Shown here: positions 6,021 to 14,297 of the stretch, in pieces
Numbering within the stretch: position 1 is the stretch's first letter
Layout: every line of letters begins with the position of its first letter
Source: a virus
Reading direction: 5' to 3' (one strand)
IMG/VR virus record: IMGVR_UViG_3300025655_000147
Span: 1-34,511 of that record
Length of the DNA: 34,511 nucleotides
Position numbers and translations under genes: made by a program
Notes under the pieces: generated by a model
Database searches by the model: none
Told to the model about the DNA's origin: nothing
Seen by the model: only the letters and a program-made list of their open reading frames with translations

Positions 6021-6285
6021 GAAGCCTATATCAAAGAAGACACTGAAGTGTAATAAGCCTCGCCGTACTCCAGGCCACAAGACTAAATCGCATGTGGTCA
6101 AAGCCTGTTCCGGTGGCAAGGAAAAGATTATCCGCTTTGGTCAGCAAGGCGTATCTGGTGCCGGTAAGTCACCTAAGACCGCAGCGCAAAAGGCACGACG
6201 CAAATCTTTCAAAGCGCGTCATGCCAAGAATATTGCCAAGGGCAAAATGTCAGCCGCTTACTGGGCTAACAAGGTTAAGTGGTAG
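6013..6285 (+). CDS. Small basic protein, conserved in marine phages (DUF5872-like)
   Basis: A 90-residue, strongly basic protein overlapping the peptidase end by eight bases. Recognisable segments are TLKCNKPRRTPGHKTKSH, KIIRFGQQGVSGAGK and the C-terminal SFKARHAKNIAKGKMSAAYW. I recognise this pattern from many phages, where it is uncharacterised; the DUF5872 label is from memory. The charge suggests nucleic-acid binding. It is the last rightward gene: its 3' end overlaps the oppositely oriented DnaA-domain gene by 11 bp with no terminator visible between them. Confidence 0.7.
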   Translation: MARKPISKKTLKCNKPRRTPGHKTKSHVVKACSGGKEKIIRFGQQGVSGAGKSPKTAAQKARRKSFKARHAKNIAKGKMSAAYWANKVKW

Positions 6286-6649
6286 TTATATACTGAGTGA
6301 TTGCCTCTGCCTTTTCTAGCATCTCTTTCAAATTGTCTGAGACTTTGCGCTTCTCCAAGTGCATAGCTGATGTATGGTCACGGGCTATTATGCTGCCTAT
6401 AGTCGGGTAGCTAAAGTCTGTATGCTTTACGCATAGTAAAACAAACAACTGCCTTGCATCCACAAAGGATAATTTCCGGTTGTGTCTGCGTAAGTCTTTC
6501 AATGACAGCCCAGAAACAGTGAATACAATATTCTCAATGTTCTCTACATCTAACTCACAACAGTATCTTTTCCAGTGTTTTGGGTCTGCCGGATTATAAC
6601 CTTTGTTATAACTCGTTCCAGTAGTCGGAAATTGTACGACTTGTCCCAT
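6275..6649 (-). CDS. DnaA domain IV-like DNA-binding protein
   Basis: A 124-residue protein. Its C-terminal half matches the DnaA box-binding domain: DARQLFVLLCVKHTDFSYPTIG (about residues 65-86) and RDHTSAMHLEKRK (about 90-102), close to the bacterial signature GRDHTTVLHA. No AAA+ ATPase, P-loop or domain I is present, so it can bind DNA but cannot form a DnaA helix by itself. It may mark a phage origin, recruit or compete with host DnaA, or regulate transcription. The start is fixed by GAGGAGGGC seven to nine bases upstream. It is the distal gene of the leftward early operon. Confidence 0.75.
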   Translation of the reverse strand: MGQVVQFPTTGTSYNKGYNPADPKHWKRYCCELDVENIENIVFTVSGLSLKDLRRHNRKLSFVDARQLFVLLCVKHTDFSYPTIGSIIARDHTSAMHLEKRKVSDNLKEMLEKAEAITQYITTT

Positions 6650-6812: not shown

Positions 6813-6978
6813 AACGTTTTAACTCCACAACGCTACGATGCACCAGTTCCTGTGCCATGTTCAGCATTTGGGTATAGGTCATCTGCTTGAAGTATGACTC
6901 ACCATGAAGGGTAAGTAGCAGCCCATTGGGATAGACTGCTACTAGGATTTGCGAATCAGAATGGGATGTTATCGTCAT
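6778..6978 (-). CDS. Small early protein of unknown function
   Basis: A 66-residue protein starting at ATG 6978 within the end of the SSB-like gene. It shows a beta-rich N-terminus (SQILVAVYPNGLLLTLHGESY) and an amphipathic helix (TYTQMLNMAQELVHRSVVEL) with an acidic tail. There is no membrane span, cysteine pair or known motif. The overlap with both neighbours and the shared operon place it with recombination/replication functions. Confidence 0.55.
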   Translation of the reverse strand: MTITSHSDSQILVAVYPNGLLLTLHGESYFKQMTYTQMLNMAQELVHRSVVELKRCGKEEDRYQED

Positions 6979-7279
6979 CTAACATAATCCGTGGCTTCTC
7001 CACGGTCTCTGCTATCTTCTTGAACCCACCCTGCCGGACGTTATCAGCGATATTGTCAGCGGCGTTGTAATCTCTGTCGATAGTACGTTCATTGATTACA
7101 ATGTCCATTGACCCGTCTTCATTCTGGAACACTGAGATGCTGTGGCGTGTGTCCTTTGACAGCACCAAATCAACAGGTTCTTTGCCCTTGTACGGCTTCC
7201 AGTTTGAGTTGCCGTGTGTGGCTTTCTTGTCTGGGTCATTAGGAAATACACGAATTGTAGTCAGTTTATTTAAGGCCAT
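6956..7279 (-). CDS. Putative single-stranded DNA-binding protein
   Basis: A 107-residue protein ending MLDDDNIPF, which closely imitates the acidic C-terminal tip (DDDIPF) that bacterial SSBs use to recruit partners. The N-terminal 75 residues are beta-rich (TTIRVFPND, PVDLVLSKDT, HSISVFQNED, MDIVINERTI), compatible with an OB-like fold, though the sequence is not a standard SSB. Its ATG shares a base with the stop of the ERF-like gene, the usual partner of a phage SSB. The functional call rests on the tip plus context. Confidence 0.6.
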   Translation of the reverse strand: MALNKLTTIRVFPNDPDKKATHGNSNWKPYKGKEPVDLVLSKDTRHSISVFQNEDGSMDIVINERTIDRDYNAADNIADNVRQGGFKKIAETVEKPRIMLDDDNIPF

Positions 7280-8155: not shown

Positions 8156-8378
8156 ATTTCCCTCCTCTTTTAGTATTAGCCCGTGCGTCTATCTCTTGGC
8201 ATTTTCTGCATTGCCTGTTGGACGTTAGCCTTTGCGCTATGTGTCCACGAATGCAAGGTATGCCAGTGAAATAAAACTTGGCGTTAATCTTCAATGCGTG
8301 TTCCAGTGATGTGTTACCAGCGTCTTTGAATGGTATCTCCAAAGCCTTTTTTATTTCTTCAATAGTTGGTACTTTCAT
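8148..8378 (-). CDS. Zinc-knuckle protein related to the HNH endonuclease N-terminus
   Basis: A 76-residue protein whose second half (FYFTGIPCIRGHIAQR then LTSNRQCRKC) has C42-x3-H46-x10-C57-x2-C60. The HNH endonuclease at 10209-10856 has the same module (YFTGKPCKRGH..., C23-x3-H27-x10-C38-x2-C41) with the same spacing. Here there is no HNH domain: it is either a truncated homing-endonuclease relic or a stand-alone DNA-binding module. Its intact frame, good start and ATGA overlap with the exonuclease gene argue for a functional gene. Confidence 0.65.
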   Translation of the reverse strand: MKVPTIEEIKKALEIPFKDAGNTSLEHALKINAKFYFTGIPCIRGHIAQRLTSNRQCRKCQEIDARANTKRGGKYD

Positions 8379-9271
8379 TCTGCCCTCCAGGCTTGCTTGG
8401 CTATGTCTAATATTTCACGCCCGTGTCTCTGCGCAATTTCTGCGTAGTCAGGTGTGACCATGCCGAACAAGGTTTTCCAGTTACCACTAGCAGCTTTCAT
8501 TAAGTTCTGAAGCACAAGCCAGCGCTGCACGACTGACTCATATGCTTCTTCTAAGACAGGCTTACTCAACATGTCACAGTTATCTGGTGTGCAGATGTTG
8601 TAGCCCTCGGCGGTGACAAACAGCAAAGCTGGTGTCAGGCCGGTACCTTTCCAGTAGACAGCTTGCTGCATGACTTGCTGCATCGTTGGTTCTGTTTTTG
8701 GCTTTGGTACGCGCCACGTTCTTGTGCCGTCTTTCTTTACTGGGTTAGCCACTGGCAGACTGCATTTAAGGTCAATCTGTCTGGTGTCGTCGGCATAATC
8801 CAAGAACATAATTGTCGGTATGTCGAGGCGGTCATCTTTAAATGTACGCTGGTACTCACCGACAAGTTCCACATTCTTGCCAAAATATTCTTCAATACCC
8901 TGCACAGCATAACGTATCATCTGAGGCACAACATCTTTGCAAGCCTCATAAACGTCAGCATCCTTACCGCCATCCCAATCCAGCGGCTTATATGTCATAA
9001 ACTCTGTGGTTGCGTGTCTGATTGCCTCGTCTACTGATAAGCCCTCTTGTTGGCCTCTGACGGGTGAGTAATCGTGCAGACCAAAGTAATGGTCGCAGCC
9101 CTCTTGCACTATCTGTCCGGTACGAGGTCGGGCAGACATAGGGAAGTTCATCTTGTATTCCTTGCGGAGATACAGCTTCAAGACATTTTCATAGGTTGAT
9201 TGCGTACCGCCGGATGCGCTGTTGTGATAACAGCCAAACTCCTTGCGGTAGTCTGGAATCTCATATTCCAA
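8375..9271 (-). CDS. RecB/Cas4-like PD-(D/E)XK exonuclease
   Basis: A 298-residue nuclease. TGQIVQEGCDHYF (about 51-63) resembles the first motif of PDDEXK_1/Cas4-type nucleases. TIMFLDYADDTRQIDLKCS supplies D158 and the D167-x-K169 catalytic pair, and MQQVMQQAVYW (about 197-207) is the downstream Gln/Tyr motif. It likely resects DNA ends for the ERF-like annealing protein, as lambda Exo does for Beta. The start is a TTG at 9271 with GGAGGG five bases upstream, since the nearby ATG is out of frame. It is the first gene of the leftward early operon. Confidence 0.75.
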   Translation of the reverse strand: MEYEIPDYRKEFGCYHNSASGGTQSTYENVLKLYLRKEYKMNFPMSARPRTGQIVQEGCDHYFGLHDYSPVRGQQEGLSVDEAIRHATTEFMTYKPLDWDGGKDADVYEACKDVVPQMIRYAVQGIEEYFGKNVELVGEYQRTFKDDRLDIPTIMFLDYADDTRQIDLKCSLPVANPVKKDGTRTWRVPKPKTEPTMQQVMQQAVYWKGTGLTPALLFVTAEGYNICTPDNCDMLSKPVLEEAYESVVQRWLVLQNLMKAASGNWKTLFGMVTPDYAEIAQRHGREILDIAKQAWRAE

Positions 9272-9359: not shown

Positions 9360-9560
9360 ATGTACTTAGAAGATTACATTAAAGAACAAAGACTTAGCAT
9401 GAGACGGTTTGCTAGTAAAGCTGGTTTATCTGTCTCTGCCGTGTCTCTCATTGTTCGCAATAAGCGGTTTCCAGCACCGGAAACTATGCGTAGGATATTC
9501 CTTGCAACAGATGGAAAGGTGAAGGCTGATGACTTCTTCAAACAATACCACGGACAATGA
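9360..9560 (+). CDS. Cro/CI-like helix-turn-helix regulator
   Basis: A 66-residue protein with an XRE/YdaS-like helix-turn-helix spanning about residues 4-45: LEDYIKEQRLSMRRFASKAG, then LSVSAVSLIVRNKRFPAPET. A short tail (ATDGKVKADDFFKQYHGQ) follows. It is too small for a full CI repressor with a dimerisation/protease domain, so it is Cro-like. It probably binds the inverted repeat just upstream and represses the leftward early promoter and itself. The ATG coincides with the predicted transcription start, suggesting leaderless translation. Confidence 0.75.
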   Translation: MYLEDYIKEQRLSMRRFASKAGLSVSAVSLIVRNKRFPAPETMRRIFLATDGKVKADDFFKQYHGQ

Positions 9561-9759
9561 TGAGTGGGTAGTCTGCCCTGAGTGTGGCGGCTGGGGTGAG
9601 TATGAGGTTGAGGTCGCTGTCATTGACCATATGAACGGCGGTTATCTGACTGAGGCAAAGGAAGAATGCGAAATGTGTGGCGGGGCTGGTGAGGTTCTCG
9701 CTGAAGACCTTGAGATGCAGATTGAGGTATTCTTAGAAGGTGGTGATGGCTATCACTAG
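9529..9759 (+). CDS. DnaJ-zinc-finger-like small protein
   Basis: A 76-residue protein with CPECGGWGEYE (C16, C19) and CEMCGGAGE (C47, C50), the CxxCxGxG repeats of the DnaJ cysteine-rich domain, so one zinc site is expected. No J-domain is present. Phages often carry such proteins near regulators and nucleases, with unknown role. The gene overlaps the HTH gene by 32 bp and has AAGGTGAAGG just upstream. The acidic C-terminus (AEDLEMQIEVFLEGGD) suggests protein rather than DNA contacts. Confidence 0.65.
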   Translation: MTSSNNTTDNDEWVVCPECGGWGEYEVEVAVIDHMNGGYLTEAKEECEMCGGAGEVLAEDLEMQIEVFLEGGDGYH

Positions 9760-10261
9760 GTTAGTTTGCCGTTATGCGCTGGCAGATGAACCAGTGCCGG
9801 ATGGTTGGGAATGTAAGCCAATACAGGGATGGCACGGTGCTGAAGGCCGTGTGATATGGAGTAGGAAAGTGACAAATTCTAGGCAAAAAGGTGCATCCTT
9901 TGAACGTGAGATTGCCAACAAGATATATGATGCAACAGGGATTGAGGTGAAGCGAGACCTAGAACAGTACCGCGCCTCTGACCACGGGGATTTGATTGGC
10001 TTTCCAGGATGGACGATTGAATGCAAGCGGTATAACAGCCACGGGTCTATCTATTACAAGAAGGAATGGTGGCAACAGGTAGTCAATGCCTCGTTATCAA
10101 CTGCCACCCAGCCCGTTCTCATTTACAAGTATGACAGGCAACCTATTTGCTGCGTGGTCTTTCTCTCCAGCATCAATGCTGACTATGCTGGCAAGGACGA
10201 CACGGCGATTATCCCGTTTGAGACTTGGTGTATGCTGGCATCTGAATCATTGTGTGATTAG
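9746..10261 (+). CDS. Holliday-junction-resolvase-like PD-(D/E)XK nuclease
   Basis: ATG at 9746 has AGAAGG five bases upstream and gives 171 residues. The catalytic core is GASFEREIANKIYDATG (E53 or E55), SDHGDLIG (D82) and WTIECKRYN (E92-x-K94), with WWQQVV afterwards. This is the archaeal Hjc/phage resolvase arrangement. It would cut branched DNA before packaging or process recombination intermediates. The N-terminal 45 residues (PDGWECKPIQGWH) are an extra Trp/Cys-containing segment. Its 3' end overlaps the converging HNH gene by 53 bp. Confidence 0.7.
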   Translation: MAITRLVCRYALADEPVPDGWECKPIQGWHGAEGRVIWSRKVTNSRQKGASFEREIANKIYDATGIEVKRDLEQYRASDHGDLIGFPGWTIECKRYNSHGSIYYKKEWWQQVVNASLSTATQPVLIYKYDRQPICCVVFLSSINADYAGKDDTAIIPFETWCMLASESLCD

Positions 10262-10856
10262 GGCCATAGAAATCCTCTGGCATTTTGTTGCCTTTGGCTA
10301 GGTTTTCCTCTGCTGTAATGATTTGTAGGTTCCACGGTACGTTTAGGCCGCAGATTGTTTTACCTTGTAAAGGGTAATAGTGGTCAACGTGGTGTTCGAT
10401 GCCGGTGTTTTGCGATAGTCTATTCCGTAGCGCATAAATTTTCTGTATGTCTTTTATTACGACCCATTTCGGAGTGGCTTTTTTCATCTGCTTTTTACTG
10501 CGTGAACTATATGCAGCGTACATGTCTTTATTTTCCAAATAGTGCTTTCTCATATTAGCAAGCATTGTCTGTTTGTTTTCCTTGTAATACTTGCGGCATT
10601 TAGCCCTTTGTTTTTCAGCCCAAACGTAATCTTTGCGCCTTTCTTTGAAGTATTCCGACAGCTTTTTCTTATTTTGTTTGCGCCACTTTTCTAGGCGCTT
10701 TTTAGTTTCTGGCATTTCATTTCTTAATTGTAAGCAATCAGCACAAGAATTATTGCTTGTGTACCTACTGCACACATGACCACGCTTGCACGGTTTTCCC
10801 GTAAAGTAGTGCCTAAGACCTTTTTCTTTTGCCTCTTGTTTTGTGATTATCTGCAT
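10209..10856 (-). CDS. HNH homing-type endonuclease
   Basis: A 215-residue protein. The zinc-knuckle N-terminus (YFTGKPCKRGH, then C38 and C41) is followed by a long Lys/Arg-rich helical linker (about residues 50-130) and an HNH domain. That domain carries VDHYYPLQG (D158, H159), GLNVPWNLQ (N176) and a final ENLAKGNKM. This is the free-standing mobile endonuclease type that spreads between phage genomes. ATG 10856 has GGAGGG nine bases upstream. Its 3' end runs 53 bp into the resolvase gene on the other strand, as if inserted or extended there. An alternative role is a DNA-packaging nick. Confidence 0.75.
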   Translation of the reverse strand: MQIITKQEAKEKGLRHYFTGKPCKRGHVCSRYTSNNSCADCLQLRNEMPETKKRLEKWRKQNKKKLSEYFKERRKDYVWAEKQRAKCRKYYKENKQTMLANMRKHYLENKDMYAAYSSRSKKQMKKATPKWVVIKDIQKIYALRNRLSQNTGIEHHVDHYYPLQGKTICGLNVPWNLQIITAEENLAKGNKMPEDFYGPNHTMIQMPAYTKSQTG

Positions 10857-10893: not shown

Positions 10894-10921
10894 TTGACAG
10901 CTTTTTTCTGCTTTGTATAAT
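10894..10921 (+). promoter_or_regulatory. Consensus sigma70 promoter pointing against the accessory operon
   Basis: TTGACA (10894-10899), 16-bp spacer, TATAAT (10916-10921): both boxes match the consensus exactly. No plus-strand gene follows; transcription would run through the repeats at 10943-11042 and then antisense to the leftward accessory genes. A short palindrome TCCGC-atta-GCGGA (10921-10934) covers the expected start site (about 10928), a likely operator. Confidence 0.65.
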
Positions 10922-10927
10922 CCGCAT

Positions 10928-11032
10928 TAGCGGAGTTTTATAAAACTTGCTATGCTAAACTTGCTAAATAAAACCTGATTGTTGATATAAAAAATCTGGA
11001 CGTTAAACTTGCTAAGCCTAGCAAGTTTTATA
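10928..11032 (+). ncRNA. Possible short untranslated RNA
   Basis: Transcription from the consensus promoter would start near 10928 and could stop after the hairpin at 11005-11028, whose right arm runs into TTTTATAT. The RNA would be about 100 nt with no reading frame preceded by a ribosome-binding site. It could be an antisense RNA, a replication primer or simply a transcriptional activator of an origin. The terminator is weak because the stem is AT-rich. Confidence 0.3.
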
Positions 11033-11042
11033 TAACTTGCTA
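10943..11042. repeat. Iteron-like repeats AACTTGCTA
   Basis: The 10-mer AAACTTGCTA occurs at 10943-10952, 10957-10966 and 11005-11014, inverted at 11019-11028, and as AACTTGCTA at 11034-11042. The third and fourth copies form a perfect 10-bp-arm palindrome with a 4-base loop followed by TTTTATAT. The region between copies is AT-rich. This is the arrangement of a replication origin or a multi-site operator. The palindrome could also end a short plus-strand RNA. Confidence 0.6.
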
Positions 11043-11063
11043 AGCATAGCACCCGTTTCTCTC

Positions 11064-11303
11064 CTATTTTTCTTCTATGATTGCATCATACAAATCAGCC
11101 ACGCGATTTGCGTCTTTTTTAAACTCCTCCATTGCAGCATCAATCAATTCGGGTTCAGAAAACCCCAACGAATTCTCTGCTTGCTTGCGCGACACATTGA
11201 AAGCCTTTCCTACTGCCATACCGCTGCCGTTTCTCTCCCAAGCAATCAGGTCTACGTTGTAGGTTTTGCCTGAGTGGTGCTTTGTTATCCTTACTTCATA
11301 CAT
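11064..11303 (-). CDS. Small accessory protein (79 aa)
   Basis: A 79-residue protein starting MYEVRITKHHSGKTYNVDLI, with a beta-rich N-terminus and a helical acidic C-terminus (ELIDAAMEEFKKDANRVADL). It is probably the last gene of the leftward accessory operon. GGAGGAG lies ten bases before ATG 11303, inside the end of the preceding HTH gene. The stop is followed by the repeat region. No domain recognised. Confidence 0.55.
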   Translation of the reverse strand: MYEVRITKHHSGKTYNVDLIAWERNGSGMAVGKAFNVSRKQAENSLGFSEPELIDAAMEEFKKDANRVADLYDAIIEEK

Positions 11304-11304
11304 T

Positions 11305-11481
11305 TTATTTCTCCTCCAATTCGATAGCTTCCAAAGCCATCTCTATAACCCGACTTATCGGGGTTTCTCCCATCTCATAAGCCTGAATACTACGACGAGA
11401 CAATCCCAGCCTTTCAGCAAATGTTTGCTGCGTGTAACCAAGAAATTCGCGCCTCTGTTTAAACTCCGCTGGTGTCATCAT
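11305..11481 (-). CDS. Second XRE-family helix-turn-helix regulator (58 aa)
   Basis: A short gene with ATG 11481 (alternative 11478) and GAGG just upstream. MMTPAEFKQRREFLGYTQ is followed by QTFAERLGLSRRSIQAYEMG, a textbook XRE HTH with the recognition helix in SRRSIQAYE, then SRVIEMALEAI. It resembles small phage and toxin-antitoxin regulators. It may repress the accessory operon via the palindrome at 13883-13897, bind the repeats downstream of it, or cross-regulate the early switch. Its ATG shares a base with the stop of the upstream gene. Confidence 0.75.
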   Translation of the reverse strand: MMTPAEFKQRREFLGYTQQTFAERLGLSRRSIQAYEMGETPISRVIEMALEAIELEEK

Positions 11482-11705
11482 CAATCCTCTAGCCCCATTG
11501 GCTGCTTTCTTAGCAATTCTTCTCGCATGCTATCGGTGATTGTGGCAACGCCGCAATCTAGCAAGTCCATGTCGTATTGATGGATAAGGTTACGCATTTG
11601 GGTTTGTGCTTTCTCTGCGGAGTCGAAGCACTCCCATTTCTGAACCTCGGTGGCCTGGCCTACCGCATTGCTGCGGTAAGCTATGGTTGCAAATACTAGA
11701 TACAT
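11481..11705 (-). CDS. Small accessory protein (74 aa)
   Basis: The start is ATG 11705, eight bases after AAAGGAGG, rather than the further-upstream ATG 11729. The product (MYLVFATIAYRSNAVGQATE..., C-terminal QPMGLED) has a beta strand N-terminus and a helical middle (SAEKAQTQMRNLIHQYDMD). It resembles no family I know. It sits between two genes with one-base and two-base spacing, so it is cotranslated with the HTH gene downstream. Confidence 0.55.
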   Translation of the reverse strand: MYLVFATIAYRSNAVGQATEVQKWECFDSAEKAQTQMRNLIHQYDMDLLDCGVATITDSMREELLRKQPMGLED

Positions 11706-13876: not shown

Positions 13877-13905
13877 TAGATAGCGCAGTAACTGCGCCAT
13901 GTCAA
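13877..13905 (-). promoter_or_regulatory. Promoter of the leftward accessory operon with embedded operator
   Basis: Minus strand: TTGACA (13905-13900), 17 bp, TATCTA (13882-13877), about 35 bp before the first gene. The spacer is filled by a perfect 15-bp palindrome, GCGCAGT-t-ACTGCGC (13883-13897), placed to block RNA polymerase. One of the two HTH proteins of this phage, or a host repressor, is the likely ligand. Confidence 0.65.
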
Positions 13906-14102
13906 CAGCAAAATATAAAAAAAGTTTACACATGGCAAAAAAGTTTGTTTATATATATAAGTGTGGCAAGCGTTGAATTTGTTTGAGATTTGTTTTTGGG
14001 AAGGTTGGTTTTGTATTTCAAAACACGCACAACGCACGAAAGATATCGCGCTGCAATGCATGGCGGCAAGGCTAACAGATGAATAAAACAACGTCAACAA
14101 TG

Positions 14103-14145: not shown

Positions 14146-14297
14146 ATGCTTACCTTGTTGCAGTCAGGACACAGTGTGACATTTGTGCCACAGTCAAAGG
14201 CATGGGGGGGCATGTTTTCGAGGCGGTACACCCGACAGCGACCGGCCAGCTTTATATATGTTAAATAGACATATTCAACACACACCCAGAGGTAACG

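Follow-up and report, generated by a model that had tools for sequence, protein, structure and literature searches.

The par locus of pAD1, of the Fst family, encodes a convergent pair of RNAs with a shared bidirectional terminator and direct repeats. Iteron-type phage origins, such as lambda ori, have repeats that adjoin an A/T-rich tract, and transcription crosses the site. The lambda pR'-tR' leader ('6S RNA') combines a strong sigma-70 promoter, a short untranslated RNA and an intrinsic terminator, and the antiterminators Q, AlpA and GafZ bind at promoters with a spacer that is conserved beyond the hexamers (PMC6606751, PMC9371919, PMC11150451). Additionally, phages make stand-alone small RNAs with their own promoter and terminator, no ORF and strong predicted structure, which do not depend on their neighbours (PMC12197685).

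The element described here lies in an uncultured marine phage, in a window that comprises the whole of a 34,511-base IMG/VR virus record (G000). We suggest that it is a self-contained, regulated noncoding-RNA gene that is convergent with an accessory operon, a reading that we hold to be about evenly poised between right and wrong. Like the stand-alone small RNAs, it has its own promoter and predicted terminator, no ORF, strong predicted structure and independence from neighbouring genes; unlike them, it has no Rfam similarity, and it carries many copies of a short motif, a long imperfect palindrome and a convergent overlap with the accessory operon. With par it shares two predicted convergent transcripts that overlap at a common terminator, with repeats in the overlap, but no small toxin ORF adjoins it and the opposing transcript is that of a many-gene accessory operon. 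It resembles iteron-type origins in its repeats beside an A/T-rich tract and in the predicted transcription across the site, but here the A/T tract would also serve to terminate transcription. The likeness to the lambda leader extends to the strong sigma-70 promoter, the predicted short untranslated RNA and the predicted intrinsic terminator.

Because its terminase (~50% identical) and portal (~60%) match HTVC010P-type pelagiphage counterparts while its exonuclease and other replication genes are almost without a match in isolates, the phage is, on protein similarity, a member of an uncultured sister group to these pelagiphages, the HTVC010P type, which ranks second in abundance among the ocean's pelagiphage groups (PMC12753301). 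A distant blastn search with a 1 kb query against phage isolates gave no match to the element region, and neither the exo protein nor the promoter-palindrome pattern had a host or prophage copy among 84,980 genomes.

The coordinates are collected in the table. The early rightward operon has a slot of variable content between its zinc-finger and RusA-like genes, and some relatives carry inserted methyltransferase-like genes there (L012 4560-5096, L019 4421-4933, L048 5472-6383, L056 5696-6718). Further left, a 107-aa protein (6956-7279, -) ends in DDDNIPF, an SSB-like acidic tip, and an adjoining 259-aa ORF resembles an ERF-type recombinase; Pfam gave no match for either. A stand-alone DnaA domain IV protein (6275-6649, -; Pfam Bac_DnaA_C, E 4e-14) is conserved in related phages and has no DnaA ATPase part. 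To the right, the palindrome in the likely accessory promoter is kept with changed bases in relatives, and its layout is similar to that of the GafZ element of the Caulobacter GTA promoter. Positions 14245-14297, before TerS, hold a conserved motif (TATATATGTTAAATA...CACACA; in distant relatives TGTGTTAATT...CCACACACAG) that is a candidate late promoter or packaging site, and an invariant AAAAAAAGTTTACAC lies further upstream, near 13920.

Table 1. Positions of the element, its predicted parts and the surrounding genes in the window
Feature	Position	Strand	Remark
exo	8375-9271	-	left of element
Small HTH gene	9360-9560	+	left of element
Zinc-finger gene	9529-9759	+	between HTH and RusA-like genes
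RusA-like PDDEXK resolvase gene (phrog_244)	9740-10261	+	left of element
HNH gene	10209-10856	-	immediate left neighbour of element
Element	10894-11072		between HNH gene and leftward accessory genes
-35 hexamer TTGACA	10894-10899	+	exact consensus; invariant across 26 distinct sequences
16-nt spacer	10900-10915	+	positions 1 (G) and 3-6 (TTTT) 100% conserved
-10 hexamer TATAAT	10916-10921	+	invariant save TAAAAT in L029 and L168
Operator-like palindrome CCGC-ATTA-GCGG	10922-10933	+	expected transcription start (near 10928) lies inside
Predicted noncoding RNA, about 130-145 nt	10928-11072	+	from promoter position and terminator scan; end between about 11058 and 11072
Imperfect palindrome	10934-11037	+	left half complementary to right; self-match on - strand
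AACTTGCTA copy 1	10944-10952	+	exact match
AACTTGCTA copy 2	10958-10966	+	exact match
T-tract of leftward accessory operon terminator (A-tract on +)	10985-10995	-	same place in all six classes
Stem common to both strands' terminators	10997-11055		+ strand: TTTCTCTC after a fold of -18.3 kcal/mol; - strand: ATTTTTTATAT after one of -21.9 kcal/mol
AACTTGCTA copy 3	11006-11014	+	exact match
AACTTGCTA inverted copy	11019-11027	-	sole inverted one; complementary to all others
AACTTGCTA copy 4	11034-11042	+	exact match
T-rich tail of rightward terminator	11056-11075	+	partly reverse complement of neighbouring gene's 3' end
Leftward accessory genes	11064 to about 13857	-	include 11064-11303 and 11305-11484 (small HTH protein, HTH2)
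Likely promoter of leftward accessory operon, TTGACA-17-TATCTA	13877-13905	-	palindrome GCGCAGT-A-ACTGCGC fills spacer
TerS, then late genes	from 14298	+	right of accessory operon

Relatives fall into six sequence classes (A-F), all with the element at the same place in the gene order. Class A is that of the window, with the repeat AACTTGCTA, and class B (L017 and others) has the repeat AACTTGTTAAGCAT. Class C (L064-L073) combines the repeat GCATTGC with a promoter TTGACA-18-TAAAAT that has a perfect DnaA box in its spacer, and class E (L154-L160) has the promoter TTGACG-15-GATAAT; class F consists of L157 and L163. Class D (L048-L082) has a palindrome but no near-consensus promoter, which counts against the noncoding-RNA reading.

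The promoter at 10894-10921 (+), TTGACA-16-TATAAT, is the sole 12/12 sigma-70 match in the window, where about 0.02 are expected by chance over both strands (7e-5 in this intergenic stretch); such consensus matches, like folding energies, are predictions. The preliminary description had already singled it out as the best promoter in the window and as one with no gene downstream on its own strand, and both points hold, the neighbours 10209-10856, 11064-11303 and 11305-11484 all reading leftward. Since the first alignment, of 24 relatives, had been picked by the promoter itself, the count was repeated on contigs retrieved through terminase and exo. When both fetched sets are pooled, with entry requiring at least a 10/12 promoter match plus the repeat signature, the promoter scores 12/12 in 24 of 26 distinct HTVC010P-like uncultured marine phage sequences and 11/12 in the remaining two; the hexamers vary at one position only, and variation is otherwise seen in the flanks and in the rest of the spacer. 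The exo set, fetched by a gene about 1.6 kb from the promoter, carried no promoter requirement for inclusion. Here, every A/B-clade contig that spans the RusA-like gene to HTH2 (homologues of 11305-11484) scores 12/12, except L126 and L168 with 11/12 (TAAAAT); three contigs with lower scores (L130, L149, L151) have no HTH2 gene and appear to stop short of the element.

Judged by this pattern of conservation, the promoter is real and under selection, and the conserved spacer positions are a possible protein site. Homology to relatives begins at the -35 in several differing upstream contexts, with the HNH gene in some relatives, the stop codon of the RusA-like gene in others and two further contexts besides, and the genes to the right of the element differ as well. 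Because homology starts at the -35 while the genes on both sides change, promoter and hairpin are evidently kept as a module.

A palindrome at the start site and repeats behind the promoter had likewise been pointed out from the sequence, and both are confirmed. Six versions of the palindrome follow the -10 hexamer, all of which pair: CCGC/GCGG, CGCT/AGCG (L123), CAGC/GCTG (L029), CCGGC/GCCGG (L168), TCGC/GCGA (class C) and TCAC/GTGA (class E). By our own arithmetic, the chance that a random stretch pairs as well is roughly 1-2%. As pairing that is rare by chance persists across six versions, the palindrome matters as such and is kept by selection, and since the start site falls within it, it most likely acts in DNA, as an operator. 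It is not evident in classes D and F, and CCGCNNNNGCGG, tested as a genome-wide regulator motif, has no second exact copy.

Downstream, five exact copies of AACTTGCTA (four +, one -) lie within 10944-11042; as exact copies are confined to the element, a role as a genome-wide regulator motif was rejected. Absent from the preliminary description is the imperfect palindrome at 10934-11037, with a 70% self-match (E 4e-6) and a folding z of about -3.8. In the genomes that were tested, the element ranks among the strongest-folding sites. The palindrome measures about 100-200 bp, and in all six classes it is centred on the + strand A-tract, with halves that are complementary at z -3.5 to -10.5 versus shuffles, a complementarity that is in part a consequence of the repeats. 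Most stem pairs are invariant within the A clade, where variation is too small for RNA covariation to be decisive; the repeats of the palindrome would fit a DNA-level as well as an RNA-level function, which covariation cannot separate. The recognition helix of the 11305-11484 HTH protein was considered as tracking the repeat sequence and set aside, the correspondence being loose, not strict.

A terminator scan of both strands found, in all six classes, one stem with T-tracts on either side. On the - strand, the stem is followed in every class by T-rich sequence at the central tract, the central A-tract being invariant in alignment A2, with model cases in classes E and F. On the + strand, the T-rich tail is TTTCTCTCCTATTTTTC after the stem in the window and GTTTTTCTTTTTT in class C; this tract is irregular, with T at 5-7 of 8 positions, and in part it reads the final codons of the adjacent gene in reverse complement, and the rightward terminator, predicted from stem plus T-rich tail in all six classes, is of moderate quality. 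These predictions place the end of the leftward operon near 10985 and that of the rightward RNA near 11058-11072. The preliminary description had placed the rightward stop at a hairpin with 10-bp arms (11005-11028) followed by TTTTATAT, giving an RNA of about 100 nt. The hairpin exists, within the larger stem region, but it was rejected as a terminator: the T run is broken in relatives (TTATATATAA in L012, TTAAATATAA in L023), since it forms the loop of a hairpin made with the repeat that follows. A better score goes to the larger stem with its T-rich tail, and a stop there gives an RNA of about 130-145 nt. The further idea of an RNA antisense to a dozen leftward genes is unsupported as a default, because the RNA would end at the predicted terminator without reaching the first gene; going by the anatomy, the predicted overlap with the accessory mRNA involves the 3' tail alone, about 75-85 nt.

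How else might such a region be explained? It could be a convergent terminator that stops two facing operons and makes an RNA without a function of its own, the strong promoter merely adding head-on transcription that keeps the accessory operon out of the replication genes. The leftward terminator at the same spot in all classes and the T runs in both directions at the centre of classes D-F are compatible with such an insulator, but the near-invariant promoter, the covarying start-site palindrome and the extra left-half repeats would be left unexplained, and we consider it quite unlikely. A leader of the lambda pR'-tR' type, the main rival, which we regard as unlikely rather than far-fetched, would yield a short terminated RNA by default until a phage antiterminator loads at the promoter and bypasses the terminator; polymerase would then run rightward to the late genes, silencing the leftward accessory operon en route. 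The unit does face the late genes, its spacer is conserved beyond the hexamers, and in the 438 nt before TerS the best rightward promoter match is 9/12. Just upstream lie the RusA-like gene and a small zinc-finger gene, which all six classes have between the RusA-like gene and the HTH gene and whose product has two CxxCxGxG motifs; 8/8 members tested match two PHROGs named 'anti-termination protein Q-like' (best 4.1e-5), and the protein matches lambda Q in 7ubm weakly (E 0.75). This similarity, however, comes from a generic DnaJ-type CxxCxGxG motif, and the protein measures 58-81 aa against the 207 aa of the Q chain in 7ubm. Whereas the late genes of lambda follow directly in the same direction, about 3.2 kb of opposing genes separate the element from TerS, and the motif TATATATGTTAAATA / TGTGTTAATT, some 35 nt ahead of TerS and conserved in every class for which a TerS sequence was available, could itself be the late promoter. 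The element also has a start-site palindrome in place of a spacer repeat, its left/right complementarity would be unnecessary for such a leader, and at the very start of the transcript the classes share no clear pause site of the -10 type (TATAAA at 10939-10944 in the window, just CATAAC in class B).

The preliminary description had also raised an RNA linked to a replication origin. At such an origin, an initiator would bind the repeats and the palindrome, the A/T-rich centre would open, and transcription from the promoter would activate or prime replication. Repeats in both orientations flank the A/T tract in all classes, the phage encodes the DnaA domain IV protein, and class C places a perfect DnaA box, TTATCCACA, exactly between -35 and -10 (L064, L065, L069, L070, L073), the sole perfect one in the scanned loci L065, L069, L070 and L073. 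This box in one class of relatives keeps an origin-linked RNA conceivable; the window's own element and class have none, GC skew tracks gene direction and gives no sign of an origin beyond it, the central A/T tract is already accounted for as the leftward operon's terminator, and nothing of the kind stands at the equivalent position in the isolate HTVC010P. We consider an origin very unlikely.

What can be read directly in the DNA is a promoter, a conserved palindrome, structure, terminator signals on both strands and their conservation as a unit. Among the earlier ideas, a small RNA from a regulated promoter fares best, because promoter, start-site palindrome and terminator stay together while the flanking genes change. 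Rfam covariance models gave no match above the gathering score, the hits to VrrA and MIR169_8 (E 0.1 each) and to SNORA67 (0.13) being so far below it that they were dismissed as chance, and no conserved ORF was found in the predicted RNA; a new family of noncoding RNA is the best reading. Specifically, a full-consensus host sigma-70 promoter, gated by the palindromic operator at the start site, would make an RNA of about 130-145 nt. This RNA would fold either as one long imperfect hairpin or as its own terminator stem, and an intrinsic terminator would end it ahead of the first leftward gene. The same stem on the opposite strand would terminate the accessory operon at the A/T tract in mid-element, and the two transcripts would overlap tail to tail over about 75-85 nt. 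We infer that the element is transcribed and that a phage DNA-binding protein represses the promoter, with the small HTH proteins 9360-9560 and 11305-11484 as candidates. The structured RNA may then act on the 3' end of the accessory mRNA, which the tail-to-tail overlap makes the obvious candidate target, or on a host factor.

An abundant long-hairpin RNA might also serve as a decoy or sponge, with its several AACUUG motifs and near double-stranded arms, or prime or gate replication via a DnaA-controlled promoter. We find this distinctly improbable; if true, a widespread group of marine phages would be using a new form of takeover or replication control based on RNA. Taken together, if the noncoding RNA is made, the best host-type promoter of this genome would serve a noncoding RNA and no protein gene. 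As such, it would provide a named target for marine metatranscriptomes and a handle on operon timing in phages without an RNA polymerase of their own.
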